A model generated the notes under the pieces. It searched no databases. It had not been told where the DNA came from and worked only from the letters and a program-made list of their open reading frames with translations. The position numbers and the translations under genes were made by a program. A DNA stretch of 64,000 nucleotides from Sphingomonas alpina (GTDB lineage Bacteria; Pseudomonadota; Alphaproteobacteria; Sphingomonadales; Sphingomonadaceae), in assembly GCF_014490665.1 (NCBI RefSeq), contig NZ_CP061038.1:62001-126000 (forward strand). Direction: 5' to 3'. Shown here piece by piece: positions 1 through 22,504 of this stretch (position 1 is its first letter; each line of letters starts with the position of its first letter).

Positions 1-314
1 TTGAAGCGATTGCCCGCCGGCTCGTCGATCCGTCCGATCACCGTAGCGATCGAGACATGCAGCGTCGGCTCGTCGACAGCGAGTCGCACGAAACCCGGAT
101 CGCCACAGCCGACCAGTCCGCCCTGCGCATCCAGGCCAAGCGCGGTGAGCCGGAAGCCAAGCGGTTGAACGTCATTCGCGCCGCTGATCACATCGTGGCG
201 GTGCAGCGCGCGGCCTTTGATATCGACCCACCAGATCAGGTGGCGCGAGGCATCCCATAACGGCCCCTCGCCAAGGATGGCTCGCACATCGGCAACGCAG
301 TCGACCCTTGTCAT
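1..314 (-). CDS. SMP-30/gluconolactonase family sugar lactonase, N-terminal part (cut by window edge)
   Basis: The gene reads leftward from an ATG at 314, and only its first 104 residues are inside the window. The family's N-terminal signature is visible: LGEGPLWD at about residue 14, WWVDI at about 28, and NRF at the very edge, where the family motif continues as NDG. Members are six-bladed beta-propeller, metal-dependent lactonases. Next to a sugar 1-dehydrogenase and AraD1 it probably opens L-arabinono- or D-galactono-lactone; this substrate is inferred from context. It is divergent from the aldehyde dehydrogenase at 409 and shares a 94-base intergenic region holding a GTATAC palindrome, so both genes are probably controlled together. 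Confidence 0.85.
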   Translation of the reverse strand, partial: MTRVDCVADVRAILGEGPLWDASRHLIWWVDIKGRALHRHDVISGANDVQPLGFRLTALGLDAQGGLVGCGDPGFVRLAVDEPTLHVSIATVIGRIDEPAGNRF

Positions 315-370
315 TCAATCACCTATCGCTTGATTTATGCCGTCGCATCCGGCAAACGCCCGGGCATGGC

Positions 371-389
371 AATATAGTATACTGTCAGA
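371..389. promoter_or_regulatory. GTATAC-centred palindromic operator, copy 1
   Basis: The sequence ATAGTATACTGT lies 20-38 bases before the aldehyde dehydrogenase start. Its centre GTATAC (377-382) and flanks match the operators at 3985 and 16785, with consensus AT(C/A)GTATAC(G/T)GT. This copy is the most divergent of the three. A GTATAC core fits FCD-type GntR regulators. It probably serves both the 409 gene and the divergent lactonase. Confidence 0.5.
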
Positions 390-408
390 CTTAAGGACGG
401 AAGAGTTT

Positions 409-1986
409 ATGGATATCACCGGCGCGATTCTCATCGGTTCGGGCGAGCGGACCGCGAGCGAAACCTTCGACGGTGTCGATCCGGCGACGGGCGCGACTCT
501 CGCGCCGCCCATCTCGCAAGCGGGACTGGATGATGTCGCCGCGGCGTGCACCCTCGCAGAAGCAGCGTTTCCCGTCTTCAGCGAACTCGCGCTTGAGCAA
601 CGCGCCGCCTTTCTTGAAACGATCGCCGACCGTATCGCAGCGATCGGCGACGATTTGATCGTGCGTGCAATGGCCGAGAGCGGCTTGCCGCGTGCCCGGC
701 TCGAAGGCGAGCGCGGCCGCACCATCGGGCAGCTCAAGCTGTTCGCCGGTGTCGTCCGCCAGGGTGACTGGCTGGATGTGACGATCGACCCGGCACTGCC
801 CGATCGCGCACCGCTGCCGCGGCCTGATCTGCGGCGGCGCAATGTCGCGCTCGGCCCGGTTGCGGTGTTCGGCGCCTCGAACTTCCCGCTGGCCTTTTCG
901 GTTGCCGGTGGCGACACCGCGTCCGCGCTTGCCGCAGGGTGCCCGGTCGTGGTCAAGGGCCATCCAGCGCATCCCGGCACTGGCGAACTGGTCGCGCGCG
1001 CGGTGCGTGAAGCGGTCACTGCCTGTGGTCTGCCCGAGGGCGTCTTCTCCTATCTGCCGGGCACGAGCAACGATCTGGGCGGCGCGCTCGTCGCCGATCC
1101 GCGGATCAAGGCGGTCGGTTTCACCGGGTCGCGCGGCGGTGGTCTGGCGCTGGTGCGCATTGCCGCCGGCCGTGACGAGCCGATCCCGGTCTATGCCGAA
1201 ATGTCGAGCATCAACCCGGTGGTCCTGTTTCCCGGCGCGGCGAAATCGCGCGGCGCGGCACTGGGCACGGCATTCGTTCAGTCGCTGACCATGGGTGCGG
1301 GGCAATTCTGCACCAATCCCGGTCTGGTCATCGCAGTCGACGGGCCGGGACTGGACGCGTTCGTCGAGGCCGCCAAGGCTGCGCTCTCGACCAGTCCCGC
1401 GCATCTGATGCTGACACCCGGTATCCATACGAGCTTCGAACAGGGCGTCGAGGCGCTTGCCGCGCACGCGTCGGTCGAAACGCTGGCGCGCGGGCTGGTC
1501 GGCGAGGGCGTCAATCAGGCGCAGGGCGCATTCTTTTCGACCACCGCGGAGAAGTTCCTGGCCGACAAGGCGCTTGGCCATGAAGTATTCGGATCGTCGT
1601 CGATCCTGATCCGCGCCAAGGACATGGCGGAGGTCGCCAAGCTGGTGCGCGGTCTCGAAGGTCAGCTGACCGCGACCTTGTTGTTCGACGCCGAAGACGA
1701 GGCCGCGGTTGCGCCGCTGGTGCCGTTGCTCGCCGCGCGCGCGGGTCGCATCCTGGCCAATGGCTGGCCGACCGGTGTCGAAGTCAGTCATGCGATGGTT
1801 CATGGCGGCCCCTATCCGGCGACCAGCGACAGCCGCACCACATCGGTCGGTAGCCTGGCGATCGAGCGCTTCCTGCGCCCGGTCTGCTATCAGGGTCTGC
1901 CCGATGCCTTGCTGCCCGACGCGCTGCGTTCGGCAAATCCGTGGCAGGTGGCGCGGCGGGTCGACGGTATCGTCGAGCGCGGCTGA
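409..1986 (+). CDS. Aldehyde dehydrogenase, probably alpha-ketoglutaric semialdehyde dehydrogenase
   Basis: This 525-residue NAD(P)-dependent aldehyde dehydrogenase matches the length and the N-terminal pattern ([10 protein letters not shown], then FDGVDPATG) of alpha-ketoglutaric semialdehyde dehydrogenases. It shows the catalytic Cys301 in GQFCTNPG, the general base Glu264 in YAEMSS, and GSRGGG for cofactor binding. The expected reaction is alpha-ketoglutarate semialdehyde to alpha-ketoglutarate, the last step of both oxidative L-arabinose breakdown and 4-hydroxyproline breakdown, and both routes have genes in this locus. I chose the ATG at 409 because AGGACGGAAG lies before it and residue 1 then begins the conserved region; an upstream ATG at 337 would run through the operator. 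Cytoplasmic, no signal peptide. The exact substrate is inferred. Confidence 0.88.
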
Positions 1987-2038
1987 GCCTCGTTCAGAGA
2001 AAAAATGCGCCCGATCAACAAGGGCGGAGAGGGATAGA

Positions 2039-3040
2039 ATGGCGAAATCACTGATCCAGTTCCGCGACGCCGACGGCACGCGCGGCGTGGCGCTGCTTGA
2101 TGATGATAGTGTCGCGCGCGTCGTGCCGGGCGTCGCGACGACGCTCGACCTGGCATTGCGGGCGCTGGCGGCTGGCCAGTCGCTTGCCGCTGCCGCGAGC
2201 CAGGCGCTCGCTGACGCCGCTGGGCACGCAGGCGAAGCGATCGATCTCGCTTCGGTCACATTGCTCGCGCCGATCGATCATCCCGATACTGCGCATCTGC
2301 TGCTTACCGGCACCGGGTTGACGCATCTCGGTTCGGCCGAGGGCCGTGACAAGATGCACCGTGCGATCAACGATGCGGCGCAACAGACCGATTCGATGAA
2401 GATGTTCCTGATGGGGGTCGAAGGCGGCAAGCCGACCGATGGCCAGGTCGGTGCACAGCCTGAATGGTTCTATAAGGGCGATGGCATGTCGCTGATCGCC
2501 CCCGGCGCGCCATTGCCGTCACCCGATTTCGCGCTCGACGCAGGCGAGGAGCCGGAATTGGCCGGCATCTATCTGATCGATCAAGACGGTACGCCGGTTC
2601 GGCTGGGCTATGCGCTGGCCAATGAATTTTCCGATCATGTGACGGAACGCGGCAATTATCTCTGGCTCGCCCATTCGAAACTGCGCCCGGCCGCACTCGG
2701 GCCGGAATTGTTGCTCGGCGACCTGCCGGAGCATGTCGAGGGCACCAGCCGCATCGTTCGCGATGGCGAGACGATGTGGGAAAAGCCGTTCCTGTCGGGC
2801 GCGGCGAACATGTCGCACAGCTTCGCCAATCTCGAACATCATCACTTCAAATATGCCGGCTTTCGTCGTCCCGGCGACGTGCATGTCCATTTCTTCGGCA
2901 CGGCCACCCTGTCGTTCAGCGATGAGGTCCGCACGCGTCAGGGCGATGTGTTCGAGATCGAGGCCGCGCCATTCCGCTTGCCGGTGCGCAACCCGATCGG
3001 CGCCGCGCCCGCGCTTACCGCAACGGTGCGGGCGCTCTGA
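2039..3040 (+). CDS. araD1: AraD1/GguC-family fumarylacetoacetate hydrolase-fold protein
   Basis: A 333-residue cytoplasmic protein of the fumarylacetoacetate-hydrolase fold. It resembles the AraD1/GguC subgroup found in sugar-acid clusters, predicted to dehydrate L-2-keto-3-deoxyarabonate to alpha-ketoglutarate semialdehyde. Visible marks are LLTGTGLTHLG at about residue 86, a YKGDG segment mid-protein, and a His-rich stretch (LEHHHFKYAG) followed by GDVHVHFFG. A GGGCGGAGAGGG ribosome site precedes the ATG at 2039. It lies 52 bases after the aldehyde dehydrogenase that would take its product and one base before the sugar dehydrogenase. The family call is firm; the precise reaction is known only by analogy. 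Confidence 0.78.
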   Translation: MAKSLIQFRDADGTRGVALLDDDSVARVVPGVATTLDLALRALAAGQSLAAAASQALADAAGHAGEAIDLASVTLLAPIDHPDTAHLLLTGTGLTHLGSAEGRDKMHRAINDAAQQTDSMKMFLMGVEGGKPTDGQVGAQPEWFYKGDGMSLIAPGAPLPSPDFALDAGEEPELAGIYLIDQDGTPVRLGYALANEFSDHVTERGNYLWLAHSKLRPAALGPELLLGDLPEHVEGTSRIVRDGETMWEKPFLSGAANMSHSFANLEHHHFKYAGFRRPGDVHVHFFGTATLSFSDEVRTRQGDVFEIEAAPFRLPVRNPIGAAPALTATVRAL

Positions 3041-3041
3041 G

Positions 3042-3965
3042 ATGGCAATTCGGATTGCCGTAGTCGGTCTGGGTAAGATCGCGCACGACCAGCATTTGCC
3101 GGCGATCGCCGCGTCGCGCGATTTCGAACTGGTCGCGGCGGCGAGCCTCGAAGGCACCACGCCCGGCGTGCCGGTGTTCCGCACGATCGACGAGTTGCTC
3201 GCCTCCGGCATCGCGATCGATGCGGTGGCGATGTGCCAGCCGCCCCAGGCGCGCTACGAAGCGGCGCTGAAGGCGATCCGCGCGGGCAAGCATGTGCTGC
3301 TGGAAAAGCCGCCGGGCGCGACGCTGGCCGAATGTGAGGGGCTGGTCCGCCTTGCCGAGGACACGGGCACGACATTGTTCGCCGCCTGGCACTCGCGTTA
3401 CGCGCCCGGTGTCGCGCAGGCCAAGGCATGGCTTGCCGAGCGCAAGATCGTGTCGGCGGAGATCGTGTGGAAAGAAGATGTCCGGCGCTGGCATCCCGGC
3501 CAGCAATGGATCTGGCAGCCCGGCGGGCTTGGCGTGTTCGATCCCGGGATCAACGCGCTGTCGATCGCGACCGCAATCATCCCGCAGCATATCGTCCTGC
3601 TCGACGGAGAGCTGGAAATGCCGGCCAATCGCGCCGCGCCGATCGCCGCGCGGCTCCAACTGGTCGACATGGACGGCGCGCCGATTTCCGCGGTGTTCGA
3701 CTGGCGCCAGACCGGGCCGCAAAGCTGGGATATCTTCGTCGATACGGCGGACGGCCGGCTCGAACTGACTCAGGGCGGCAGTAAACTCCGAATCGCGGGC
3801 GAGGAGCGGGCGCTCGCGCCCGAGGCGGAATATGGCGATATGTATGCCCATTTCGCGGATTTGGTGCGCGCCGGCGAAAGCGATACCGACCGCAGTCCCT
3901 TGCGCCTGGTAGCCGATGCCTTCTTACGTTCCAGACAACACCAGACTGATGCCTTCATCGATTGA
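3042..3965 (+). CDS. Gfo/Idh/MocA-family sugar 1-dehydrogenase (L-arabinose/D-galactose type)
   Basis: A 307-residue NAD(P)-dependent oxidoreductase. The N-terminal Rossmann motif is VVGLGKIAHDQHLPAI, the family EKP motif appears as LLEKPPG at about residue 85, and GGLGVFDPGINALS at about 160 resembles bacterial L-arabinose and D-galactose 1-dehydrogenases. It would oxidise the sugar to its 1,4-lactone, the substrate of the lactonase at 1-314. It follows araD1 by one base and so is probably cotranscribed. Other Gfo/Idh sugar dehydrogenases remain possible; the pentose/galactose assignment rests on sequence resemblance plus the surrounding arabinosidases. Confidence 0.8.
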   Translation: MAIRIAVVGLGKIAHDQHLPAIAASRDFELVAAASLEGTTPGVPVFRTIDELLASGIAIDAVAMCQPPQARYEAALKAIRAGKHVLLEKPPGATLAECEGLVRLAEDTGTTLFAAWHSRYAPGVAQAKAWLAERKIVSAEIVWKEDVRRWHPGQQWIWQPGGLGVFDPGINALSIATAIIPQHIVLLDGELEMPANRAAPIAARLQLVDMDGAPISAVFDWRQTGPQSWDIFVDTADGRLELTQGGSKLRIAGEERALAPEAEYGDMYAHFADLVRAGESDTDRSPLRLVADAFLRSRQHQTDAFID

Positions 3966-4017: not shown

Positions 4018-6393
4018 ATGGTGCGCACCAGCCGTCGCGAATTGATGTTCGGTGTTGCGGCTCTCGCCCTGACAGCAGCGCCGGGTCGTTTGTTCGCCGC
4101 GACGTCGACGATCCTGCCGAAAACCGCCAAGCCCCTGCCGCTGTCCGCGGTGCGGTTGCGGCCATCCGATTTCGCCACCGCGGTGGAGGCCAATCGCGTC
4201 TATCTGCTGCGGCTCAGCGCCGACCGGCTGCTGCACAATTTCCGCAAATATGCCGGGCTGGAACCCAAAGCGCCGATCTATGGCGGCTGGGAAAGCGACA
4301 CGATCGCCGGACATTCGCTTGGCCATTACATGACCGCGCTGGTCCTGACCCATGAACAGACCGGCGATGCCGAGATGCGCCGGCGCGCCGACTATATCGT
4401 CGATGAACTGGCCGAGGTGCAGGCGAAGCGCGGCACCGGTTATGTCGGCGCGCTCGGACGCAAGCGCAAGGACGGCACGATCGTCGATGGGGAGGAGATA
4501 TTCCCCGAAGTGATGAAGGGCGAGATCAAATCCGGTGGGTTCGATCTCAACGGTTCCTGGTCGCCACTCTATACCGTGCACAAGATCTTCGCCGGCCTGC
4601 TCGACGTGCACCGCTCATGGGGCAATCCGAAGGCACTGACCGTGCTCAAGGGACTTGGCGGCTATTTCGAACGCGTCTTCGCCGCGCTTGACGACAAGCA
4701 GATGCAGGAATTGCTGAGCTGCGAATATGGCGGCCTGAACGAAAGCTATGCCGAGCTTTACGCGCGGACCAACGACAAAAGCTGGCTGGTCGTGGCTGAA
4801 CGCATCTATGACAATCGTGTGCTCGATCCGCTCGTCGCGCAACAGGACAAGCTGGCCAATTTCCACGCCAATACTCAGGTGCCCAAGCTGATCGGCCTCG
4901 CGCGCCTGCACGAGCTGACCGGAAAGCCGTCGCAGGCGACCGCCGCGCGTTATTTCTGGGACCGGGTGACGCAGCATCACAGCTATGTGATCGGCGGCAA
5001 TGCCGACCGTGAATATTTCTCCGAACCGGACTCGATCGCCGCGCACATCACCGAACAGACCTGCGAGCATTGCAATACCTACAACATGCTCAAGCTGACG
5101 CAGAAACTGTACAGCTGGCAGCCGGACGGCGCGTTTTTCGACTATTATGAGCGTGCGCACCTCAATCATGTGATGGCGGCGCAGAACCCGAAGACCGCCG
5201 GCTTCACTTATATGACGCCGCTGATGACCGGGTCCGAGCGAGGCTATTCGACCAAGGATGACGACGCCTTTTGGTGCTGTGTCGGGTCGGGCATGGAAAG
5301 CCATGCCAAGCATGGCGAAGCGGTGTTGTGGGAAGGCGAGGGCGCGTTGCTCGTCAACCTCTACATCCCGGTCGAGGCGACATGGAAAGCGCGCGGCGCG
5401 CAGCTTACGCTTGACACGCGCTATCCGTTCGAGCCGGAATCGCGGCTGACGATCACCAGGCTGGCGCGTCCGGGCAGCTTCCCGATCGCGTTGCGTATTC
5501 CCGGCTGGGCAGCCGGAAAGGCGGTGGTCACGGTCAATGGCGCAATGGTGAAACCGGTCGTCGAGGGCGGTTATGCGATCGTCAAGCGCCGCTGGAAAGC
5601 GGGCGACAGCGTCGCGGTCACGCTGCCGCTCGATCTGCGCATCGAAGCGACGCCGGGCAATGCCGATGTCGTGGCGATCCTGCGCGGTCCGCTGGTGCTC
5701 GCCGCCGATCTCGGCCCGACCGCCACGCCATGGAGCGAGGCCGATCCTGCGCTGGTCGGTGCGGACCTGCTCGCTGGCTTCACCGCAAAGGCGCCGGTTG
5801 ACGCGGTCTATGCGACCAACGGCATCGTCCGCCCCGGCAATCTCGATTTCGTGCCATTTTATCGTCAGTATGAACGGCGCAGCGCAGTCTATTTCAAGCG
5901 TTTCAGCGAAGGCGCATGGAAGGTCGAGGAAGCGGCGTTCCTTGCCGACCAGGCACGACTGAAGGACATCGCCGCGCGCTCCGTGGATACGATGTTCCTC
6001 GGCGAGATGCAGCCCGAACGCGACCATAACCTGGTTTCCGAGCAATCCTATCCGGTCAGCTATCGCGGTCGTAACGGCCGCGACGCGCGGTCCGGCGGGT
6101 TCTTCGAATTCACCTTGAAGACCAAGCCCGGGCCATTGATCCTGCAGGCGACCTATTGGGGCGACGAGCGCAAGCGCGATTTCGATATCCTGATCGACAA
6201 TGTGAAAGTCGCGACGCAGCATCTCGAAAATGATCGTCCGGGCAAGTTCATGGACGTCGAATATCCGCTGGCCGAGGCGTTGACCGCGAAGAAGGACAAG
6301 GTGCGTGTCCGGTTCGTGCCGCATGACCGCAGCACCGCCGGCCCGGTCTTCGGCGTGCGACTCTATACCGCCAAGCCCGCGCCAAAGGCGTGA
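4018..6393 (+). CDS. GH127 beta-L-arabinofuranosidase, Tat-exported
   Basis: A 791-residue exported enzyme. The N-terminus has a twin-arginine signal (SRRELMFG then a hydrophobic stretch ending LFAATS). The catalytic (alpha/alpha)6 domain carries all four zinc/catalytic residues known from the bifidobacterial enzyme HypBA1, at nearly the same numbers: Glu350 and Cys352 in CEHCNTYNM, Cys420-Cys421 in WCCVGSGMESH. A beta-rich C-terminal domain follows from about residue 650. GH127 removes beta-1,2-linked L-arabinofuranose, the sugar attached to hydroxyproline in extensins. An AGGAG ribosome site (4006-4010) precedes the ATG, and the GTATAC operator sits just upstream. It begins a run of tightly spaced genes ending at 13537. 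Confidence 0.92.
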   Translation: MVRTSRRELMFGVAALALTAAPGRLFAATSTILPKTAKPLPLSAVRLRPSDFATAVEANRVYLLRLSADRLLHNFRKYAGLEPKAPIYGGWESDTIAGHSLGHYMTALVLTHEQTGDAEMRRRADYIVDELAEVQAKRGTGYVGALGRKRKDGTIVDGEEIFPEVMKGEIKSGGFDLNGSWSPLYTVHKIFAGLLDVHRSWGNPKALTVLKGLGGYFERVFAALDDKQMQELLSCEYGGLNESYAELYARTNDKSWLVVAERIYDNRVLDPLVAQQDKLANFHANTQVPKLIGLARLHELTGKPSQATAARYFWDRVTQHHSYVIGGNADREYFSEPDSIAAHITEQTCEHCNTYNMLKLTQKLYSWQPDGAFFDYYERAHLNHVMAAQNPKTAGFTYMTPLMTGSERGYSTKDDDAFWCCVGSGMESHAKHGEAVLWEGEGALLVNLYIPVEATWKARGAQLTLDTRYPFEPESRLTITRLARPGSFPIALRIPGWAAGKAVVTVNGAMVKPVVEGGYAIVKRRWKAGDSVAVTLPLDLRIEATPGNADVVAILRGPLVLAADLGPTATPWSEADPALVGADLLAGFTAKAPVDAVYATNGIVRPGNLDFVPFYRQYERRSAVYFKRFSEGAWKVEEAAFLADQARLKDIAARSVDTMFLGEMQPERDHNLVSEQSYPVSYRGRNGRDARSGGFFEFTLKTKPGPLILQATYWGDERKRDFDILIDNVKVATQHLENDRPGKFMDVEYPLAEALTAKKDKVRVRFVPHDRSTAGPVFGVRLYTAKPAPKA

Positions 6394-6431
6394 ACGCCAC
6401 GAGCCAGGACGCTGCATCGGCGGGAGTCGTG

Positions 6432-7442
6432 ATGACGCTCGCCGAAGTCCGCGCGCTTGCGCGGCGGGTGTTGCGTGGCGTCGGTCTGGATCGCATGCAT
6501 GCCGAGGTGGTCGCGGAGACGATGGTTGCCGGCGAACGCGACGGCTGCGCCTCGCACGGCATCTATCGTCTGCTGGTCGCGGCGCGCAGCGTCGCGGCGA
6601 AGATCGTCGTGCCGGATGCGGTGCCCGACGTGAAGGAGCCGGCCGCGGCGCTGGTGGCGGTCGATGGCGGCGGCGGCTTTGCGCAGCTCGCCTTCGAAAT
6701 GGGTAAGCCGCTGCTGATCGAGAAGGCGCGGCGCTTCGGCATCGCGGCAATGGCGGTCAACAATGTCGTCCATTTCGCGGCGCTCTGGCCGGAGGTCGAG
6801 GCGTTGGCGGAGCAGGGGCTGGCGGCGATCGCTGTCACGCCCAGCCACGCCTGGGTCGCGCCGGCCGGCGGGACCAGGCCGGTGTTCGGGACCAACCCGA
6901 TCGCTTTCGGCTGGCCGCGACCGGGCCACGAACCATTCGTGTTCGATTTTGCCACCAGCGCGGTGGCGCGGGGTGAGATCGAACTGCACCGCCGCGCGGG
7001 CCGGGCGGTGCCGGAGGATTGGGGTTATGATCGCACAGGGCAGCCGACGACCGATGCCGCTGCGGTACTTGACGGCGCGATGCGCACCTTTGGCGGGCAC
7101 AAGGGATCGGCGCTTGCCGCGATGGTCGAGCTGCTCGCCGGTCCGCTGATCGGCGACCTGACCAGCGCTGAATCACTCGCGCGTGATGCCGGGCGCGGCG
7201 GATCGCCGATCGGTGGCGAGCTGATCATCGCGATCGATCCGGCGGGCTTTCTCGGTGCCGGTGTCGCCGCCAGCTTGGCGCGCGCCGAAGCGCTGTTCGA
7301 GGCGATCGAAGGGCAGGGCGCTCGCCTGCCGTCGCAGCGGCGTTATGCCGCACGGGCGCGCAGCCTGAGCGAGGGTGTCGTCGTTCCGACGGCGCTGCAT
7401 GCTGAGATCATGGACCTGGTCGGCGGGAGCGAGCGGATATGA
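6432..7442 (+). CDS. Ldh/malate dehydrogenase-family oxidoreductase, possibly delta1-pyrroline-2-carboxylate reductase
   Basis: A 336-residue member of the malate/L-lactate dehydrogenase (DpkA/YbiC-like) NAD(P)-dependent family. Family marks include CASHGIYRLL at about residue 40, VNNVVHF with the active-site region near 105, GTNPIAFGWP near 155, and FGGHKGSALA near 225. Relatives in proline/hydroxyproline clusters reduce cyclic imino acids such as delta1-pyrroline-2-carboxylate, which suits the racemase and deaminase genes nearby; malate or lactate is not excluded. I prefer the ATG at 6432 (GGGAG 6 bases upstream); a GTG at 6390 overlapping the GH127 stop is the alternative. The end overlaps the next gene by 4 bases (ATGA). 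Confidence 0.8.
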   Translation: MTLAEVRALARRVLRGVGLDRMHAEVVAETMVAGERDGCASHGIYRLLVAARSVAAKIVVPDAVPDVKEPAAALVAVDGGGGFAQLAFEMGKPLLIEKARRFGIAAMAVNNVVHFAALWPEVEALAEQGLAAIAVTPSHAWVAPAGGTRPVFGTNPIAFGWPRPGHEPFVFDFATSAVARGEIELHRRAGRAVPEDWGYDRTGQPTTDAAAVLDGAMRTFGGHKGSALAAMVELLAGPLIGDLTSAESLARDAGRGGSPIGGELIIAIDPAGFLGAGVAASLARAEALFEAIEGQGARLPSQRRYAARARSLSEGVVVPTALHAEIMDLVGGSERI

Positions 7443-9220: not shown

Positions 9221-9221
9221 C

Positions 9222-13537: not shown

Positions 13538-14277
13538 GGCGCTGGCGCATCCTCGACGGTCACTCGTCCTACCTTGGTGTCGATCACCACCTCGAACGTG
13601 CCGCGATTATAGGCGAAGCTCTCGGCGTTCAGCCCAAGCGCAATCGCTACGGCGCCCTCGGGAACCTGCGCGACGGCATAGTCGCCGATCGGGAAGGGCT
13701 GGCCGATCACCGTGCCATCGGCATCGACAAATGCGCCGATCAGCGCATTGATACGGACAGGATAATCTTTGGGTCGAATATAATAGCTCGGAAAAACACT
13801 GCCGAACGCGCCGCGATAGGCGTTGGCGGGCTGATAGGGCTGCCCGGCCGGGCCCCAGGCGCCGAACTGAGCGACCGGGCCGAAGCCATTGGGTTGGCCC
13901 ATCGACTTCATCGCATCACCAATGTCGGGAAAGCCCGGCTGAACCAGCCCGACCGGCCCGGTGTCATCGGCCGCGGTACGCACGCGCGATTGTGATACGG
14001 GCGGGCGTGGCCCGCCATGCACGACATTGACCAGTCCGGTGGCGATGAGGGTGATCCGGTCATTGGCGGTCAGCTCGAGCCCCCAGACATAGACCGGACG
14101 CTTCCCGTCGCTCTGGCCGAACGGCAGCTTGGCATTGACGCCCGGATCCCAGGGCATGGTCCGGCCATCGACCTTCACCACAACCTTGCGCGCCGCTGCG
14201 GGCGATGCGTGGACGACCGTAGCCAGCGCCAGGATCGACAACAGCCTGCATGCCGTTGCGGCGTGAAACATGGTCAC
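13534..14277 (-). CDS. Exported protein with PA-IL (LecA)-like C-terminal domain, function unknown
   Basis: A 247-residue secreted protein: hydrophobic signal to about residue 25 (ASPAAA), then a beta-rich body. The last 80 residues follow the PA-IL/LecA galactophilic-lectin pattern: a NALIGAFVD strand, a PFPIG turn, then LGLNAESFAYNRGTFEV, which aligns with the lectin's ND...DN.G calcium loop. The calcium-ligating Asp residues of that loop are replaced here (LN and YN), so sugar binding cannot be assumed. The start is a GTG at 14277 with AGGAG 8 bases upstream; ATGs at 14271 and 14301 are alternatives. It is convergent with the DUF5695 gene and downstream of the M24 gene on the same strand. 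Confidence 0.6.
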   Translation of the reverse strand: MTMFHAATACRLLSILALATVVHASPAAARKVVVKVDGRTMPWDPGVNAKLPFGQSDGKRPVYVWGLELTANDRITLIATGLVNVVHGGPRPPVSQSRVRTAADDTGPVGLVQPGFPDIGDAMKSMGQPNGFGPVAQFGAWGPAGQPYQPANAYRGAFGSVFPSYYIRPKDYPVRINALIGAFVDADGTVIGQPFPIGDYAVAQVPEGAVAIALGLNAESFAYNRGTFEVVIDTKVGRVTVEDAPAP

Positions 14278-14332
14278 CGGTCGATCTCCTAATTTGGGCA
14301 TCCTCGCATGCCGAGACCGCGCATCATCTGCT

Positions 14333-15517: not shown

Positions 15518-16752
15518 GATGTCATCCTATTGGCGCCGAACCGGCCGATGTCGAAGGGGGAAATATCCATCGCCGGGGCTTCGTCCCGCGCCAGCGCGCC
15601 GACGATCGCCGCTGTTACTGGCGCTAGCGTCAGGCCGAGATGCTGATGGCCGAACGCATAGATCAGGTTGCGCGCATGGCGCGAACGGCCGATCGCGGGC
15701 AGGTAATCGGGCAATGTGGGCCGGGCGCCGATCCAGCGCTCGAACGGTCCCGCGATCGGCAGGCCGAGCGCCGCGACATGTGCTTCCAGCCGGTCCCATT
15801 TGCGTGGATCGGGCGGCGCGTCGAACCGGTTGAGCTCGACAAAGCCCGCCGCCTGTACGCAATCGGCATAGCGGGTGACAATCATCGATCGATCCTCGAA
15901 CGCGATCGGCGGCAGGTCGGCCGGCCAATGGTCTGCCCGCGCACGGATATGATAACCACGCTCGGCGATCAGCGGCACGCGATAGCCCATGGCACGCATC
16001 AGCGCGCCCGATTGCGCACCGGCGGCGATAATCAGCAGATCGGGGGCCTCGCCGTCGATCGTCGCTTTGTCGCCGTCAAGCGCAATGGTCGCGCGCCGTC
16101 GCTTGATCGTGTCGCCGTGCGCGATCAGCGTCGCTTCGAGTGCATCGGCCAGCGCGTTCAGGTCAGTGATCTGGCCGCTGCCGGTGAAGCGGATCGCGTC
16201 GACCACCGACGGTGCAATCGTTCTGCGAAGACGGTTGAGATCATCCGGCGTCGCCGACGCGAATTGCGTGGTGCCGGTGTCTGCCTCGCCCCAACTGGCC
16301 CGGCCCGACCTGGCCGTCGCGTCGCTCTCCCAGGCAACGAAATGGCCATCGCGCCGCAACAGGTCGGCAGCGCCGATCAATTCGGTCAGGTCCTTCCAGG
16401 CCGGCAGCGAAGGCGCCAGGATCGAAGCTAATGCCCTGCTTCCTGCGGCAAAGCGCGCCGGCCTCGACGCGGCGATCATCCGGACCGCGAACGGCGCCCA
16501 TGCGCGAATGCCCGACAGCGGCAGGTCCAGCGCACCGCCGGCCGAGAAGCGTCGGCGCGGTGCAGAGCGGATTGACGCGAACGATGCGAGCGGCGCGACT
16601 TGTTCGGTGGCGATATGCCCGGCATTTCCCCATGACGCGGCGGTGCGGTCGCCATGTTCTTCGATCACGGTGACGGCATAGCCGCTGCGAGCTAGTTCGA
16701 GGCCGGCGCACAACCCAATAATTCCGCCGCCGATCACGATTGCTCGCCGCAT
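15514..16752 (-). CDS. FAD-dependent D-amino acid dehydrogenase, probable D-hydroxyproline dehydrogenase
   Basis: A 412-residue DAO-family flavoenzyme. The N-terminal dinucleotide motif is VIGGGIIGLCAGLELARSG, followed by a signature for the DadA group (ASWGNAGHIA at about residue 48) and a C-terminal FAD-contact stretch (YAFGHQHLGLTLAP). D-hydroxyproline dehydrogenases of the single-subunit type belong here and convert cis-4-hydroxy-D-proline to 1-pyrroline-4-hydroxy-2-carboxylate. The divergent DapA-family deaminase and the epimerase beyond it supply the steps on either side, which favours that substrate over D-alanine. The ATG at 16752 has AGGAG 8 bases upstream; the ATG at 16785 would run through the operator. 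Confidence 0.82.
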   Translation of the reverse strand: MRRAIVIGGGIIGLCAGLELARSGYAVTVIEEHGDRTAASWGNAGHIATEQVAPLASFASIRSAPRRRFSAGGALDLPLSGIRAWAPFAVRMIAASRPARFAAGSRALASILAPSLPAWKDLTELIGAADLLRRDGHFVAWESDATARSGRASWGEADTGTTQFASATPDDLNRLRRTIAPSVVDAIRFTGSGQITDLNALADALEATLIAHGDTIKRRRATIALDGDKATIDGEAPDLLIIAAGAQSGALMRAMGYRVPLIAERGYHIRARADHWPADLPPIAFEDRSMIVTRYADCVQAAGFVELNRFDAPPDPRKWDRLEAHVAALGLPIAGPFERWIGARPTLPDYLPAIGRSRHARNLIYAFGHQHLGLTLAPVTAAIVGALARDEAPAMDISPFDIGRFGANRMTS

Positions 16753-16784
16753 TGGTTGTTTCTCCTGTTGCACTGCACACTTCA

Positions 16785-16801
16785 TTATCGTATACGGTAT
16801 A
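16785..16801. promoter_or_regulatory. GTATAC-centred palindromic operator, copy 3
   Basis: ATCGTATACGGTAT here is identical over 14 bases to copy 2. It sits between the divergent D-Hyp dehydrogenase/M24 pair (start 16752) and the deaminase gene (start 16830), so a single regulator could switch both directions. Confidence 0.65.
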
Positions 16802-16829: not shown

Positions 16830-17744
16830 ATGACGATTGGCTGGAAAGGTGTTTTTCCTGCGGTTACCACACAGTTGCGAGAGGATCTGTCGATCGATCT
16901 CGCCGACACGCAGCGCGTGGTCGATGATCTGGTCAATGATGGCGTCACCGGAGTGATCGCATTGGGCACGGTCGGGGAGAATAACTCGCTCGACTTCGAT
17001 GAAAAGAAAACCGTGCTTCAGGCGATCGTAGAGGTCGTTGCCGGCCGTGTGCCGGTGATCACCGGCGTGTCGGAATACGACACGCGCCGCGCGGTGCGCT
17101 ACGCACAGGCGGCGGAGGCGATCGGCGCCGATGGACTGATGCTGCTGCCGCCGATGGTTTATGTGCCCAAGACTCATGAGCTGGTCGCGCATTTCAAGGG
17201 TGTCGCGGAACAGACCGGCCTGCCGATCATGCTCTACAACAACCCGCCGGCCTATCGCACGGTGATCGACAAGGACGTTCTGAGTGCGCTGGTCGATGTC
17301 GCGAACATCGTCGCGGTCAAGGAATCCGCGCCGGATACGCGCCGCTTCACCGATTTTCGCAACGAATTCGGCGATCGTTTCGTGCTGTTCGCCGGACTCG
17401 ACGATGTCGCGCTTGAAGGGCTGTATCTCGGCGCACAAGGCTGGGTGTCGGGGCTGACCAACGCCTTCCCCAAGGAATCAGTCGAGCTGGTCGCCGCTTT
17501 CGAGCGCGGCGATCATGCCAAGGCGATGGAGATTTATCGCTGGTTCATGCCGCTGCTTCATCTCGATGCGGAGCATGACCTGGTGCAGTCGATCAAGCTT
17601 GCCGAGCAGGTCATGGGGCGCGGTTCGGAACGCGTCCTGCCGCCGCGCATGGTGCTTGAGGGCGCGCGCCGCGCCGAAGTGATCGCGATGGTCGAAAAGG
17701 CCGCCGCGACGCGTCCGACTCTCGCACATGCCCAGGCAGCCTGA
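16830..17744 (+). CDS. DapA-family protein, probable 1-pyrroline-4-hydroxy-2-carboxylate deaminase
   Basis: A 304-residue TIM-barrel protein of the dihydrodipicolinate synthase/N-acetylneuraminate lyase family. The Schiff-base lysine is Lys164 in VAVKES and the catalytic tyrosine is Tyr136 in LYNNPPAYR; GTVGENNSL near residue 47 is the substrate carboxylate-binding loop. In hydroxyproline degradation a DapA homologue deaminates 1-pyrroline-4-hydroxy-2-carboxylate to alpha-ketoglutarate semialdehyde. The flanking epimerase and D-Hyp dehydrogenase strongly support that. A keto-deoxy-sugar-acid aldolase or dehydratase is the alternative, which would also fit the arabinose branch. It lies 29 bases after operator copy 3 and 13 bases before the epimerase. 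Confidence 0.82.
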   Translation: MTIGWKGVFPAVTTQLREDLSIDLADTQRVVDDLVNDGVTGVIALGTVGENNSLDFDEKKTVLQAIVEVVAGRVPVITGVSEYDTRRAVRYAQAAEAIGADGLMLLPPMVYVPKTHELVAHFKGVAEQTGLPIMLYNNPPAYRTVIDKDVLSALVDVANIVAVKESAPDTRRFTDFRNEFGDRFVLFAGLDDVALEGLYLGAQGWVSGLTNAFPKESVELVAAFERGDHAKAMEIYRWFMPLLHLDAEHDLVQSIKLAEQVMGRGSERVLPPRMVLEGARRAEVIAMVEKAAATRPTLAHAQAA

Positions 17745-17757
17745 TAGCATCGCCGAT

Positions 17758-18756
17758 ATGCGTCACACCTTTTTCTGCATCGACGGCCATACGGCGGGCA
17801 ATCCGGTCCGCCTGGTCGTCGGCGGCGCGCCGCTGCTGAAGGGCGCCTCGATGTCCGAGCGACGGCAGGACTTCATGGCCCGGTTCGACTGGATCCGCAC
17901 CGGCCTGTGTTTCGAACCGCGCGGGCACGACATGATGTCGGGTGGTTTTCTCTATCCGCCGACGCGTGATGATGCCGATATCGGCATCCTGTTTATCGAG
18001 ACATCCGGCTGCCTGCCGATGTGCGGCCATGGCACGATCGGCATGATCACTTTCGGGCTCGAACATGGGCTGATCGAGCCGGCCAAGCCCGGCAGATTGC
18101 GCGTCGAGGTCCCCGCGGGCGTGATCGACATCGCCTATACGCAAGACGGAGCAAAGGTCGTCGCGGTCAAGATCACCAACGTGCCCGCTTATGTCGCAGC
18201 GCGCGGAATCGAAATCGATGTCGAGGGTATCGGCCCCTTGTCGGTCGATGTGTCCTATGGCGGCAATTATTATGCGATCATCGAGCCACAGGGCGCCTAT
18301 ACCTCGCTCGACGATCTCGGCGCGGCACGACTGGTCGATCTGAGCGGCCGCATCCGTGACGCGGTGCGGGAGGAGTTCGAGCCCGTTCATCCGCTCGACC
18401 CGACGATCCGCGGCGTCAGCCACATATTGTGGGCGGATAAACCGCGCGGCGATGGCGCGGATGGGCGTAACGCGGTTTTTTATGGCGACAAGGCGATCGA
18501 CCGCAGCCCGTGCGGCACCGGCACCTCCGCGCGGCTCGCGCATCTCGCCGCATCGGGCCGGCTCGCGGTCGGCGAACGCTTCGTGCACGAAAGCTATATC
18601 GGCAGCCGCTTCATCGGCCGGGTGGAATCCGCGACATCGATCGGCGACCAGGCCGCGATCATCCCGTCGATCGAGGGATCCGCCGTCGCGACCGGTTTCA
18701 ACACCATCTGGATTGATCGCGCCGATCCTTTCTGGGAGGGTTTCCAGGTCAAATGA
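17758..18756 (+). CDS. Proline racemase-family 4-hydroxyproline 2-epimerase
   Basis: A 332-residue cytoplasmic, cofactor-free epimerase. Both catalytic cysteines are present: Cys89 in LPMCGHGTIG and Cys252 in RSPCGTGTSA. Two cysteines mean racemase or epimerase, since the related trans-3-hydroxyproline dehydratases have Thr at one site. The N-terminus (FFCIDGHTAGNPVR) is typical. It would convert trans-4-hydroxy-L-proline to cis-4-hydroxy-D-proline for the dehydrogenase at 15514. Proline racemase is an alternative, but the DapA-type neighbour is not needed for proline. I chose the ATG at 17758; the upstream ATG at 17728 lies inside the preceding gene. Confidence 0.88.
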   Translation: MRHTFFCIDGHTAGNPVRLVVGGAPLLKGASMSERRQDFMARFDWIRTGLCFEPRGHDMMSGGFLYPPTRDDADIGILFIETSGCLPMCGHGTIGMITFGLEHGLIEPAKPGRLRVEVPAGVIDIAYTQDGAKVVAVKITNVPAYVAARGIEIDVEGIGPLSVDVSYGGNYYAIIEPQGAYTSLDDLGAARLVDLSGRIRDAVREEFEPVHPLDPTIRGVSHILWADKPRGDGADGRNAVFYGDKAIDRSPCGTGTSARLAHLAASGRLAVGERFVHESYIGSRFIGRVESATSIGDQAAIIPSIEGSAVATGFNTIWIDRADPFWEGFQVK

Positions 18757-18798: not shown

Positions 18799-18817
18799 AC
18801 CGGGGAGTGAGCTTTTC

Positions 18818-19472
18818 ATGAGCATCGTTATCCGCACCTTGTCCGAGCGCGTCTTCGAGATCGTTCGTGAGCAGATCGTCACGGGCCAATTGCCTGAGGA
18901 TGTGCCGATCCGCCAGGACGCGCTGGCCAGCGATTTGGGCGTCAGCAAGATCCCGTTGCGCGAAGCGCGTTGCGCGGCTGGAACAGGAAGGTCTGCTGAC
19001 CAGCCAGGCCAATCGCGGTTATTTCGTGCGTGCCATGTCGACCGGCGAAGTCGATGAGATCTATGCGTTGCGCTTGTGCATTGAGCCCGCCGCCGCTGCC
19101 TATGCGTGCGGCGTGGCGTCCGAGCAGGACCGCGAAAAGGCGCTCGCCGCGTTCGAGGCGCTCGATCGCGCGGCCAATGACAGTCTTGGCGATGTCGCGG
19201 TGCGCAACCGCGATTTCCACACTGCGCTGGTGCGTCCCGGCGGGCGTCTGCTGACCACGCAGATGGTCGAACGTCTCTCGATCCTGTCCGAGCGTTATGT
19301 CGTTGCGCATCTCAAACCGGCCGGTCGCAATGCGCGCGCGCATGTCGAACACAAGAAGCTGATCGATTCATGGATGGCGCGCGACGCGCGGCAGCTCGAA
19401 ACGCTGCTGAAAGAGCATATCGAGGGCACGCTGTACGATCTGCGCGCTCAGTTCGCCGCGACCGCGGGCTGA
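18818..19472 (+). pseudogene. GntR-family (FCD) regulator interrupted by a +1 frameshift
   Basis: The first 50 codons from the ATG at 18818 encode a GntR winged-helix (LSERVFEIVREQIVTG, then SDLGVSKIPLREA). The reading then shifts. Removing one G at about 18969 restores REALARLEQEGLL and continues without a break through an FCD ligand domain (FHTALV, AHVEHKKLIDSW, LLKEHIEG) to the stop at 19472. As written, the first frame runs out at 19057 with nonsense residues. The gene sits between the hydroxyproline genes and their probable permease, so it is the natural candidate for the regulator of the GTATAC operators. Either the strain has lost it or the extra G is a sequencing error. Confidence 0.82.
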
Positions 19473-19498
19473 TAAAAAACACAATAAGGGGGGCATCG

Positions 19499-20917
19499 AT
19501 GTTCGGACCGCGCAAGTCGCTTGATACCATCACGACGCATCTGGCCGGTCAGAGCCTCGCCAAGACGCTCAGCTGGCCGCATCTGATCGCGCTCGGCGTC
19601 GGCGCGATCGTCGGGACCGGCATCTATACGCTGACCGGCGTCGGCGCTGAGCGGGCCGGACCGGCGGTGATCCTCGCCTTCGCCATCGCCGGAGCGGTGT
19701 GCGCCTGCGCGGCGCTCGCTTATGCCGAACTGGCCACCATGCTTCCGGCTGCGGGCAGCGCCTATACCTTCAGCTACACCGCGCTTGGCGAGACGATCGC
19801 CTGGATCGTCGGCTGGAGCCTGATCCTCGAATATTCGCTTGCCTGTTCGACCGTCGCGGTCGGCTGGTCGGGTTATCTGGTCGGCTGGGTCCAGGCAGCG
19901 GGCGTCCATTTGCCACCGGCATTGCTGGTCGGGCCACATGGCGGCGGGATCATCAACCTGCCCGCCGTTGTCGTCGCGCTGAGCGTGATGGGTATGCTGA
20001 TCGCCGGCACGCGTGAGAGCGCGACGCTGAATATCGTACTGGTGATCATCAAGCTCGTCGCGCTGGGCATCTTCATCGCCTTCGCGCTGCCCGCCTTTCA
20101 AGGCAACAACCTCGAACCCTTCATGCCTTATGGGTTCGCGAGCACGGAGATCGGCGGGGAGAAGCGCGGCGTGATGGCTGCCGCGGCGATCGTGTTCTTC
20201 GCCTTTTATGGCTTCGATGCGGTCGCGACCTCGGCCGAAGAAGCGAAGAATCCGGGCCGAGATCTGACCATCGGCATTATCGGGTCGATGCTCGTCTGCA
20301 CGATCATCTATATGCTCGTCGCGGTCGCGGCAGTCGGCGCGCTGCCCTTCCAGCAGCTCGCCAATTCGCCGGAGCCGCTTGCGCTCGTGCTGCGCTCGCT
20401 CGGCGAACCGAAAGCGGCCTATCTGATCGCGCTCGCCGCGGTGATTGCGCTGCCCTCGGTCATCCTGGTGATGATGTACGGACAAAGCCGCATCTTCTTC
20501 GTCATGGCGCGCGATGGCCTGTTGCCGCGCGGCCTGGCCAAGGTCAGCCCACGGACCGGCGCGCCGACCCTGATCACGCTGATCACCGGTATTTCGATTG
20601 CGGCTGTCGCCGGTTTCTTCCGGCTCGACGAAATCGCCGAGCTGGCCAATGCCGGCACGCTGGTCGCGTTCATCTCGGTCGGCGCCAGCCTGATGGTGCT
20701 GCGCAAGCGTGCGCCGGACATGAAGCGGCTCTTCAAATGCCCGGCTCCCTATGTCGTGGGCACGCTCGCGATCCTCGGCTGCCTCTATCTGCTGTTCAGC
20801 CTGCCGTCCTCGACCATCATCCGCTTCTGTCTGTGGAACGTCATCGGGCTGGCAATCTATATCGCGTATAGTCGCCGCCGCAGCGACCTGCATGTGCCGG
20901 CGCCCGACCGGGTCTGA
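19499..20917 (+). CDS. APC-superfamily amino acid permease
   Basis: A 472-residue inner-membrane protein with about 12 hydrophobic segments. The first helix motif GVGAIVGTGIYTLTGVGA and YGQSRIFFVMARDGLLP in the second half are typical of the cationic amino acid transporter (CAT-like) branch of APC. The ATG at 19499 follows AAGGGGGGC, 26 bases after the regulator. Given the upstream genes, import of hydroxyproline, proline or a derived amino acid is likely, but the sequence does not fix the substrate. A close paralogue lies at 33694. Confidence 0.88.
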   Translation: MFGPRKSLDTITTHLAGQSLAKTLSWPHLIALGVGAIVGTGIYTLTGVGAERAGPAVILAFAIAGAVCACAALAYAELATMLPAAGSAYTFSYTALGETIAWIVGWSLILEYSLACSTVAVGWSGYLVGWVQAAGVHLPPALLVGPHGGGIINLPAVVVALSVMGMLIAGTRESATLNIVLVIIKLVALGIFIAFALPAFQGNNLEPFMPYGFASTEIGGEKRGVMAAAAIVFFAFYGFDAVATSAEEAKNPGRDLTIGIIGSMLVCTIIYMLVAVAAVGALPFQQLANSPEPLALVLRSLGEPKAAYLIALAAVIALPSVILVMMYGQSRIFFVMARDGLLPRGLAKVSPRTGAPTLITLITGISIAAVAGFFRLDEIAELANAGTLVAFISVGASLMVLRKRAPDMKRLFKCPAPYVVGTLAILGCLYLLFSLPSSTIIRFCLWNVIGLAIYIAYSRRRSDLHVPAPDRV

Positions 20918-20959
20918 ATTGCTTCGATCATTGCTGAATCCATCCGGGAGTATGCCGAC

Positions 20960-22504
20960 GTGCGCCTGACCTATGCCCTCGCTCTGCTTGCCGCCGCTGT
21001 TACCGCCGGTCAGCCGGTCGCCGCCCAAACCAGCGCCACCCCGGCCGCCCCGTCATTCGTTGCCGGCATGCGTGTCATCTTCGACGATCCCGCGCCCAAC
21101 CCCGGCGTGCGCCTGTTCGAAGTGTCGCGTGGGGGCGACGGCGGCTTTACCGGCAAACTGACCTCCGACTGGTACGGCGCGATGCCGATGAGCAACATCA
21201 CGCTTGCCGGCAAAATGCTCAGCTTCGACATCCGCAACATCAACACGCGCGGCGTGCCCACGCGGCGCTGGACCGCGACGCTGACCGACCAGGGCCTCCT
21301 GCTCGAAGGCGGCATCTGGGAATCGACCGTCAAACAGACCGGACGCCCCGCCAGCGCCGCTGAATTCGCCGCGCTCACCTATCGCGACGTGCCCTTGCCG
21401 CCGCTCGCGACGATCGCCCCCGATGGCCTTGCCGCGACACCGCCGATGGGCTGGAGCAGCTGGAACAAGTTCGCCGAGCATATCGACGACAGGACGATTC
21501 GCGCGATGGCCGACGCGATGGTCTCATCGGGCCTGCGCGATGCCGGTTATGTCTATGTCAACATCGATGACGGCTGGCAGGGGACGCGCGGCCCCGACGG
21601 CGAACTCCGTCCGAACGACAAATTTCCGGACATGAAAGCACTCGCCGATTACATCCATGGCAAGGGGCTGAAGCTCGGCATCTACAGCTCACCGGGGCTC
21701 AAGACCTGTGCCGGTTATACCGGCAGCTATGGCCATGTCGAACAGGATGCGAAGACCTTCGCACGCTGGGGCGTCGACTATCTCAAATACGATCTCTGCT
21801 CGGGTGAATGGCAATATGCCGATGCCGACACGGTCATGCGCACCTATTATCAGATGGGCGCCGCGTTAAAGGCGACCGGGCGGCCGATCATCTATTCATT
21901 GTGCCAATATGGCCGCTTCGACGTCGCATCATGGGGGCGCTCGGTCGGCGGTCATCTCTGGCGCACGACCGGCGACATCACCGACGATTACAAGAAAATG
22001 AGTGAGATCGGCTTCGACCGGAACCCGAAATTCGCCCATGCCGGCCCCGGCGGCTGGAACGACCCCGACATGCTGGAAGTCGGCAATGGTGGCATGTCGC
22101 ACGACGAATATACCACGCACATGACGCTATGGGCGATGTCGGCGGCGCCGCTGCTGATGGGCCACGACCTGCGCACGACCACGCCCGACGCACTCAAATT
22201 GCTGGAGAATAAGGAGGTCATCGCCGTCGATCAGGATCGCCTTGGCGTGCAGGGCGCGCTCGTCCGGCGCGACGGCGCGGTGGAAATCTGGTCGAAGCCG
22301 CTGGCCGACGGCTCGGTCGCGATCGCCCTGTTCAACCGGGGAGAAATCGACGCGCGGGTCGCCTTCCTGCCGGCGGATGCGAAGCTTTCGCGGATCACGC
22401 GGGTGCGTGATCTGTGGCGCGGAAAGTCGACCGGCTCCGGCCCCGTCAAATACAGCGTGCCGGGGCATGGTGCCGTGATGTTACGGGTCGCAGGAAAGCG
22501 TTAG
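20960..22504 (+). CDS. GH27 alpha-galactosidase, secreted
   Basis: A 514-residue exported enzyme with a Sec signal (residues 1-22, ending VAAQ). An N-terminal beta domain of about 130 residues precedes a GH27 (alpha/beta)8 barrel: TPPMGWSSWNKF at about 157, nucleophile Asp278 in YLKYDLC, acid/base Asp339 in WRTTGDI, and WNDPDMLEVGNGG later. A C-terminal beta-sandwich follows. It releases alpha-linked galactose; in extensins Ser carries a single alpha-galactose, and galactomannans or raffinose are other options. The start is a GTG with GGGAG 9 bases upstream; the nearby ATG at 20953 is out of frame. Freed galactose could enter the sugar dehydrogenase at 3042. Confidence 0.92.
   Translation: MRLTYALALLAAAVTAGQPVAAQTSATPAAPSFVAGMRVIFDDPAPNPGVRLFEVSRGGDGGFTGKLTSDWYGAMPMSNITLAGKMLSFDIRNINTRGVPTRRWTATLTDQGLLLEGGIWESTVKQTGRPASAAEFAALTYRDVPLPPLATIAPDGLAATPPMGWSSWNKFAEHIDDRTIRAMADAMVSSGLRDAGYVYVNIDDGWQGTRGPDGELRPNDKFPDMKALADYIHGKGLKLGIYSSPGLKTCAGYTGSYGHVEQDAKTFARWGVDYLKYDLCSGEWQYADADTVMRTYYQMGAALKATGRPIIYSLCQYGRFDVASWGRSVGGHLWRTTGDITDDYKKMSEIGFDRNPKFAHAGPGGWNDPDMLEVGNGGMSHDEYTTHMTLWAMSAAPLLMGHDLRTTTPDALKLLENKEVIAVDQDRLGVQGALVRRDGAVEIWSKPLADGSVAIALFNRGEIDARVAFLPADAKLSRITRVRDLWRGKSTGSGPVKYSVPGHGAVMLRVAGKR

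Follow-up and report, generated by a model that had tools for sequence, protein, structure and literature searches.

The DNA considered here (C1:62001-126000 of the 5.2-Mb, one-contig genome of Sphingomonas alpina; these 64,000 nucleotides are the window, whose positions are used below) holds, from its first base on, part of a locus of about 25 genes in which a GH146-like beta-L-arabinofuranosidase is encoded beside putative peptidases and candidate enzymes for the catabolism of trans-4-hydroxyproline (Hyp). The genes named between 1 and 22504 in an initial annotation are recovered by Pfam and NCBIfam scans. Its left border at base 1 has to be moved, since a Pfam scan of the upstream stretch (L003) finds genes of the locus continuing for up to 17.5 kb. 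Comparison of related sequences confirms that the linkage of glycosidase and Hyp genes is real and not chance, and on such comparative evidence the annotation's central idea of one locus for the sugar and the Hyp of a plant glycoprotein appears right, though its reading overall is only partly supported. The Ldh_2 protein, the DUF5695 protein at 10784-13537 and the frame change near 18968 had gone unnamed in it. The features are as follows.

Upstream part (L003): TonB receptor (start at about -17400 relative to the window), DUF6055 protein, second DUF5695 protein (DUF5695a), DPPIV-type S9 peptidase, GntR-FCD regulator
Upstream part (L003), continued: IlvD/EDD-family dehydratase (arabonate dehydratase candidate), aldose 1-epimerase, MFS permease, lactonase
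1..314 (-): SMP-30/gluconolactonase-family lactonase, L-arabinolactonase candidate; starts at 314 and continues upstream of the window; PF08450, 229 bits on L003
377..382: operator-like palindrome core GTATAC, between lactonase and KGSADH
409..1986 (+): aldehyde dehydrogenase, candidate alpha-ketoglutarate semialdehyde dehydrogenase (KGSADH); PF00171; no NCBIfam cut-off passed
2039..3040 (+): AraD1-family protein, L-2-keto-3-deoxyarabonate dehydratase candidate; NF040903, 506.6 bits against a cut-off of 340
3042..3965 (+): Gfo/Idh/MocA oxidoreductase, L-arabinose/galactose 1-dehydrogenase candidate (a sugar specificity that we assume); PF01408
3990..3995: operator-like palindrome core GTATAC, upstream of the GH146 operon
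4018..6393 (+): GH146-like beta-L-arabinofuranosidase; PF07944 (398 bits), PF20736, PF20620; RR leader, Tat-like by eye
6390..7442 (+): Ldh_2-family delta1-pyrroline-2-carboxylate reductase candidate; PF02615
7439..9220 (+): DUF885 protein, exported peptidase candidate by predicted function; PF05960, 529 bits; best solved relative 3o0y
9210..10781 (+): GH43 protein with a C-terminal galactose-binding-like region, alpha-L-arabinofuranosidase candidate; PF04616; best solved relatives 3qed and 4nov
10784..13537 (+): DUF5695 protein of a divergent type (b); PF18951, 172.6 bits; identities to aligned relatives of 60%, 54% and 23-25%
13534..14301 (-): hypothetical protein without a match in Pfam or NCBIfam
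14333..15517 (-): M24 Xaa-Pro dipeptidase (prolidase); PF00557; 495 bits to the solved proline dipeptidase 5cik/4r60
15514..16785 (-): FAD-dependent D-amino-acid (D-hydroxyproline) dehydrogenase candidate (DAO); PF01266, 136.8 bits
16790..16795: operator-like palindrome core GTATAC, between DAO and DapA, which are read divergently
16830..17744 (+): DapA-family pyrroline-4-hydroxy-2-carboxylate deaminase candidate; PF00701; dapA equivalog 188 bits, below its cut-off of 206
17728..18756 (+): 4-hydroxyproline 2-epimerase (HypE); NF010578, 539 bits against a cut-off of 376
18818..19472 (+): GntR-FCD regulator (HypR-like); PF00392 and PF07729 in two frames, frame change near 18968
19499..20917 (+): APC-family amino-acid permease; PF13520, 188 bits
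20960..22504 (+): GH27 alpha-galactosidase; PF16499, 244.5 bits; best solved relatives 6f4c and 1uas

Linkage of the glycosidase and hydroxyproline genes

By similarity to solved structures, the glycosidase at 4018-6393 is closer to GH146 than to GH127. First in rank are 5opj (BtGH146, BT0349; 450.7 bits), 6yqh and 8qf8, and second are 8k7x and 8k7y, presumably bifidobacterial GH146 enzymes (168.5 bits for 8k7x); for the GH127 structures the scores are 93.1 bits (4qjy) and 56.7 bits (HypBA1, 3wkw/3wkx). The initial annotation's label GH127, taken in its strict sense, was dropped on this difference (451 versus 57 bits), but the four zinc/catalytic residues that had been listed with it stand: E350, C352, C420 and C421 are identical across 11 aligned sequences, that of the window included, and align with those of 5opj. 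The C-terminal region is also alignable with BT0349. (5OPJ is identified as BtGH146 in a passage of PMC10728902.) According to parts of PMC10850190, two published GH146 enzymes cleave arabinofuranosyl-Hyp (Araf-Hyp), while arabinogalactan proteins (AGPs) and arabinan are GH146 substrates as well; the change of family therefore keeps the link to Hyp and leaves the polymer undecided.

HypE scores as an epimerase, with the dehydratase models far below their cut-offs (265 against 540 and 207 against 550), and it has both the MCGHG and the SPCGTG motif, aligned with 7pb3, which we take to hold the active-site Cys residues. KGSADH, DapA and DAO are candidates named by context. With seven matches in the genome, the second best at 32% identity, KGSADH is a single close copy. 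The best solved relative of the Ldh_2 protein is delta1-piperideine-2-carboxylate reductase (1wtj/2cwf/2cwh; 250 bits, the next 128), and MLD2, of the same superfamily, is described in a section of PMC4113996 as a pyrroline-2-carboxylate reductase encoded near HypE and its relatives. The M24 protein is, from its sequence match, a prolidase.

To assess the linkage, 298 genomes of the strain's family, its own included, were compared; a GH match (E<=1e-30) is present in 32 and a HypE match in 44. HypE matches below 69% identity were dropped from the co-occurrence count (four of the 44 genomes, leaving 40), and in G052 the GH copy counted was the second one, 54% identical, since the 68% copy is not the linked one. 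A GH of at least 50% identity is present in 25 of the 32 genomes, and every one of these 25 has HypE at 69% or more, as against 15 of the remaining 273. Where the best GH is below 50% (seven genomes), HypE is found in only one. Six genomes listed are of the strain's own genus: HypE accompanies the GH in both genomes that have it, and the remaining four are without HypE of at least 69%. GH146 and HypE are at most 15 kb apart in 21 of the 25 genomes (3.1-13.7 kb). By strand and position, the arrangement of the two genes relative to each other in these 21 is upstream on the same strand in seven, upstream on the opposite strand in nine, downstream on the opposite strand in two and downstream on the same strand in three; that all four arrangements occur implies that the linkage survived rearrangement. 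Recurring in the relatives' maps are GH146, Ldh_2, DUF885, M24, DAO, DapA, HypE, GntR and APC, with TonB receptors, an amidohydrolase, an alpha/beta hydrolase, S10, gamma-glutamyltranspeptidase and a second M24 as extra neighbors in some. The initial annotation had made much depend on whether the gene groups would be unlinked in relatives; co-occurrence (25/25), proximity (21/25) and a palindrome common to both operons, considered below, exclude chance proximity.

A view across genera comes from 80 named loci, the best 80 of 446 from a scan of genome contigs with flanks of at most 10 kb, a set that is biased to close relatives by that choice and misses distant genes by its flank length. These loci span Sphingomonas, Caulobacter, Sphingobium, Novosphingobium, Sphingopyxis, Stakelama, Croceibacterium, Granulicella and Terriglobus, along with less exactly named metagenome-assembled genomes (MAGs). 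Close Hyp genes are in the flanks of 55 of the 80 (at least one), 40 (at least two) and 21 (all three); gene by gene, DapA is in 52, HypE in 36, DAO in 28, DUF885 in 69, Ldh_2 in 63, DUF5695a in 60, GH43 in 42 and M24 in 26.

An operator-like palindrome and a candidate regulator

Within the window GTATAC occurs only at 377, 3990 and 16790, each time in a promoter of the locus, and a fourth site of the locus is upstream of the TonB receptor, outside the window. In the named loci, where the consensus around the core is TATCGTATACGRTAT, the test was for GTATAC at -200 to +60 of a gene start, with a chance occurrence of 2.9% per stretch. It is present at GH146 in 74/80, at DapA in 51/51, at DAO in 25/26 (often in the promoter shared with divergent DapA) and at the TonB receptor in 17/22, with lower counts for DUF5695a (27/57), S9 (8/28), HypE (2/36) and APC (1/24). 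None was found upstream of the operon-internal genes Ldh_2 (0/61), DUF885 (0/68), GH43 (0/40) and M24 (0/26), nor upstream of GH27 (0/9), DUF6055 (0/11) and GntR1 (0/22). Of the 51 loci in which the two promoters are testable, 49 have it at GH146 as well as at dapA; the next palindromic hexamers reach only 27/80 (GH146) and 21/51 (dapA). In the family regions its density upstream of GH146, DapA and DAO is 1.6-1.8 per kb versus 0.085 per kb overall. At GH146 the motif is absent from L161, L169, L207 and three of the four acidobacterial loci (L198, L202, L211), and present in the Terriglobus locus L224.

The longer pattern WTNGTATACNRT, set after the strain's own sites had been seen, is at six places in the genome, four of them in the locus (one for the reversed control pattern). 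The other two, one inside an open reading frame (ORF) and one upstream of an ORF that by eye resembles a TonB receptor, were set aside.

Upstream of dapA the motif is found in 10 of 13 loci lacking the GH and in 15 of 18 having it. Since dapA carries it where there is no GH, the palindrome looks, from its distribution, like an old Hyp operator that came to be shared with the GH146 operon. A GntR-FCD regulator adjoins the hyp genes in 30 genomes, the present one among them (cluster 3), and is the most obvious candidate for binding the palindrome. The gene is often 3' of dapA-hypE and could be read from the dapA promoter; HypR regulons are mostly autoregulated, according to a passage of PMC5343134. 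The frame change in the S. alpina copy is either a mutation or a sequencing error, while 31 ORFs of relatives are intact (214-294 aa).

Recurrence in Acidobacteriota

The gene combination recurs in a second phylum. In Granulicella paludicola (L202), 21 kb hold HypE, DAO, Pyr_redox, DapA, KGSADH, a second GH127-family protein, GH146, DUF885, APC, GntR-FCD, GH43 and DPPIV. Identities to the window's proteins are 34% for HypE (NF010577 411 bits, below the cut-off of 442), 41% for DapA, 49% for KGSADH, 71% for GH146 and 63% for GH43, and the DUF885 protein is distant at 167 bits. A GH146 tree was made of 37 of 81 sequences, hand-picked to span genera, and given a midpoint root. In it the window strain's enzyme clusters with the one from Sphingomonas sp. 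Leaf412 (79% identity), and the four acidobacterial sequences (L198, L202, L211, L224) stand together with support 100/99, forming with two Sphingomonas sequences a 95/91 fork among Pseudomonadota. Most simply, GH146 was passed between the phyla, and in Acidobacteriota it is now likely to stand beside a distant and perhaps native Hyp operon. It may be added that the acidobacterial GH146 sequences group among those of Sphingomonas and Caulobacter.

Within the Granulicella family, 120 genomes were surveyed for GH127/146 (E<=1e-60) and for HypE above 50% identity (G434, at 31%, was dropped and 35 of 36 kept). GH127/146 is present in 31, HypE in 35 and both in 23 (Fisher p = 8.6e-10, ignoring kinship). 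Fourteen GH-HypE pairs share a contig, 12 of them within 25 kb and the other two at 207 kb and 2.3 Mb; nine of the 12 linked GHs are only 37-39% identical to that of L202. In ten further genomes (11 stretches) the run HypE-DAO-Pyr_redox-DapA is complete in nine, and in the tenth (L252) the stretch examined ends within it. The same ten have KGSADH (seven), a DUF5695a relative of 49-52% identity (four), DPPIV of 58-60% (four) and GH43 of 63-70% (two).

These counts are pertinent to the idea that two unrelated neighbors, a locus for arabinan or pectin side chains and one for free Hyp, lie together by chance. There are indeed 15 genomes with HypE and without a GH of at least 50% identity, a more distant GH is part of an arabinose locus with no Hyp genes in the 20 kb examined (G227), and BT0349 belongs to a rhamnogalacturonan-I (RG-I) locus, as a passage of PMC10850190 has it. 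But co-occurrence and linkage in relatives, the operator-like site common to the two operons, the repeat in the Granulicella family and the near absence of HypE from genomes whose best GH is below 50% largely refute it, and such an origin is very unlikely.

Possible substrates and the nearest known systems

Among the wall proteins of plants and green algae, extensins and AGPs are major ones; to our knowledge, there is little on how bacteria use them whole, for carbon and nitrogen at once. The reading that we favor, and that is very probable on comparative grounds, is that one regulon would serve for hydroxyproline-rich glycoproteins (HRGPs) of plants (or green algae), with sugar and protein used together. 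The comparison establishes the gene content, the linkage, a motif common to the operons in Pseudomonadota and the return of the gene combination in a second phylum. For substrate, localization, enzyme activities and the pairing of regulator with motif we infer the following scheme. The TonB receptor would import glycopeptide, whose glycan GH146, GH43, GH27 and DUF5695, taken as exported, would remove. The DPPIV-type S9 and DUF885 peptidases would cleave the Pro/Hyp-rich peptide, the APC permease would take up products, and the M24 prolidase would release Hyp and Pro. HypE, DAO and DapA would convert trans-4-Hyp to alpha-ketoglutarate semialdehyde, and KGSADH that to alpha-ketoglutarate, with Ldh_2 perhaps recycling the ketimine formed by DAO from D-proline. 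The GntR-FCD regulator, of HypR type, binding TATCGTATACGRTAT, would switch the operons together.

In this genome L-arabinose may also be oxidized, via Gfo/Idh, lactonase, IlvD and AraD1, to alpha-ketoglutarate semialdehyde. The AraD1 and DapA reactions would both give this semialdehyde, so the arabinose and Hyp routes would meet at KGSADH, and one enzyme would finish both halves of Araf-Hyp. The genes of the oxidative arabinose branch are present as the initial annotation had it, but their place in a conserved system is weakened by their rarity in the flanks of the named loci (of 80: AraD1 4, Gfo/Idh 4, IlvD 3, GalM 3, lactonase 1). The branch was rejected as a core of the system and looks, from these counts, like a local addition.

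As to the polymer, comparative evidence sustains a link to HRGPs, and the earlier 'extensin type' is not established: the target may be extensin or AGP. GH146 enzymes accept other substrates, as noted, the GH27 that had been thought to act on Ser-galactose is in the flanks of only 11 of the 80 named loci, and the DUF5695 fold, an N-terminal beta-sandwich with an (alpha/alpha)6 barrel, is that of PL27, a lyase of AGP. The DUF6055 protein at L003:6439-8343 (PF19527, 307 bits) adjoins DUF5695a and is in 12 of the 80 loci; titles in the literature gave no relevant paper on DUF5695 or DUF6055. A regulon of the same kind with AGPs or AGP-extensin hybrids in place of extensin as target is a plausible alternative, although the less probable one. 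A DUF5695 lyase would there remove rhamnose-glucuronic acid caps, GH146 the terminal beta-1,3-Araf, GH43 alpha-Araf and GH27 alpha-galactose, after which Hyp would be consumed. DUF5695 and PL27 are, however, only 15% identical in the structural alignment, a comparison at the level of the fold, and DUF5695b had no convincing sequence match among solved structures (best E 0.75). A galactanase was likewise not recognized among the window's genes, but this is a weak argument against that alternative, the GH43 protein being typed to family only. The C-terminus of GH43 matches weakly the end of the HypBA2 model (NCBIfam). An NCBIfam scan of 16 ORFs of the window gave no GH121 arabinobiosidase, the genome not having been searched for it.

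In peptide signals of the CLE and PSY types the L-arabinose is beta-linked to Hyp. The least likely of the explanations is that the locus scavenges such small arabinosylated, Hyp-containing plant peptides (CLAVATA3/CLE, PSY), which might alter plant signalling. That they carry L-arabinose is stated in part of PMC5897480, and DPPIV, prolidase and an exo-acting GH146 would suit small glycopeptides; the present data do not distinguish small peptides from polymers, though, and use as a bulk source of carbon and nitrogen would be the simpler reading.

Several observations weigh against a single HRGP regulon. The Fisher test of GH-HypE co-occurrence in the 298 genomes (p = 2.5e-26) ignores shared ancestry, and in four of the 25 genomes GH146 and HypE are distant or on separate contigs (1.6 Mb apart in G294, on different contigs in G083 and G297, with HypE on a 3.4-kb contig in G182). 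Close Hyp homologues are missing from the flanks of 25 of the 80 named loci; 21 of these genomes still have a HypE-family match (E<=1e-20), of 71-87% identity in 17, an 86% fragment in one and 36-38% in three, and the four without one are MAGs. In the family regions GTATAC at -300 to +150 is less complete than in the named loci (GH146 18/27, DapA 25/31, DAO 23/29), the window shows no excess of the bare hexamer (three in 64 kb versus 5-7 expected from its densities in the family regions and the named loci), and the choice of the longer pattern after the event is also relevant. The motif is just upstream of the GntR gene in only two of 31 named-loci cases (GntR2), and the S. alpina copy of that gene changes frame. 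KGSADH, DapA and DAO are of superfamilies that fit the known Hyp pathway, yet none passes an equivalog cut-off, and GH146 enzymes also act on AGP and arabinan.

The closest known kind of system is the HypR regulon with collagenases. According to portions of PMC5343134 and PMC6608401, HypR regulons of Alteromonadales, Aeromonas and Streptomyces coelicolor include collagenases and proline peptidases. Shared with the present locus are a GntR-family regulator, a hypE/O/D/H core and upstream protein-degrading enzymes, in some with proline peptidases and a TonB receptor; the proposed Hyp source there, in the same passages, is collagen. Here GH146, GH43, GH27 and DUF5695 are in the locus, GH146 also sharing the operator-like site, and the GTATAC-type motif differs from CTNTGC(A/C)ATGTCAC of S. 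coelicolor, to which the comparison is limited. HypBA1/HypBA2/HypAA of Bifidobacterium and Xanthomonas are alike in pairing GH127/GH146 with GH43 on Hyp-linked arabinosides, but the pertinent passages of PMC6085000 and PMC10850190 describe arabinose release and use and do not mention Hyp catabolism. BtGH146 (BT0349) is alike in score (451 bits), catalytic Cys pair and alignable C-terminal region, and unlike in the RG-I setting of its gene, described in part of PMC10850190. Neighborhoods of the proline racemase superfamily have DAAO, DHDPS, aldehyde dehydrogenase and MLD2 near HypE and its relatives, as a section of PMC4113996 reports; in its main text 'glycos' and 'arabin' occur 0 times. A paper on Latescibacteria predicts use of HRGPs by GH127, with no Hyp catabolism in its passages on this. 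Among the papers listed from the open literature, with subscription papers mostly uncovered, no title or opening of an abstract joins a beta-L-arabinofuranosidase with Hyp catabolism in one locus, and no paper on a Hyp utilization gene cluster of Sphingomonas was found. With no listed paper joining both halves, and the HypR/collagenase regulons and the HRGP arabinosidases as the nearest, the locus is, as far as seen, a new variant of the Hyp regulon, one that carries in its upstream part a set for degrading plant glycoproteins. It would be a plant counterpart of the collagen-Hyp regulons, and it supplies named genes, a testable motif, a candidate enzyme family (DUF5695) and a prediction of which bacteria are capable. 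A broader proposal is nearly balanced, though tilted towards doubt: that this may be an undescribed class of whole-glycoprotein regulon, assembled at least twice (Alphaproteobacteria, Acidobacteriota), which would tie the removal of Hyp-linked glycans to the breakdown of Hyp itself; DUF5695 would be a new family of HRGP-glycan lyases or glycosidases, and the sugar and the amino acid would have alpha-ketoglutarate semialdehyde as common end point.

Near the two ends of the locus are proteins without a family match, that of 13534-14301 and that of L003:5082-5774, which are 36% identical over 214 columns; relatives of the former at 31-35% identity are in five of the 80 named loci. Beyond GH27, 22778-33484 is a nitrate-assimilation block (ANTAR regulator, NMT1-like binding protein, MFS, nitrite reductase, molybdopterin oxidoreductase, tetrapyrrole methylase), and after the nitrate genes a further carbohydrate enzyme, a GH2-family protein, is encoded at 35148-37034 (-).

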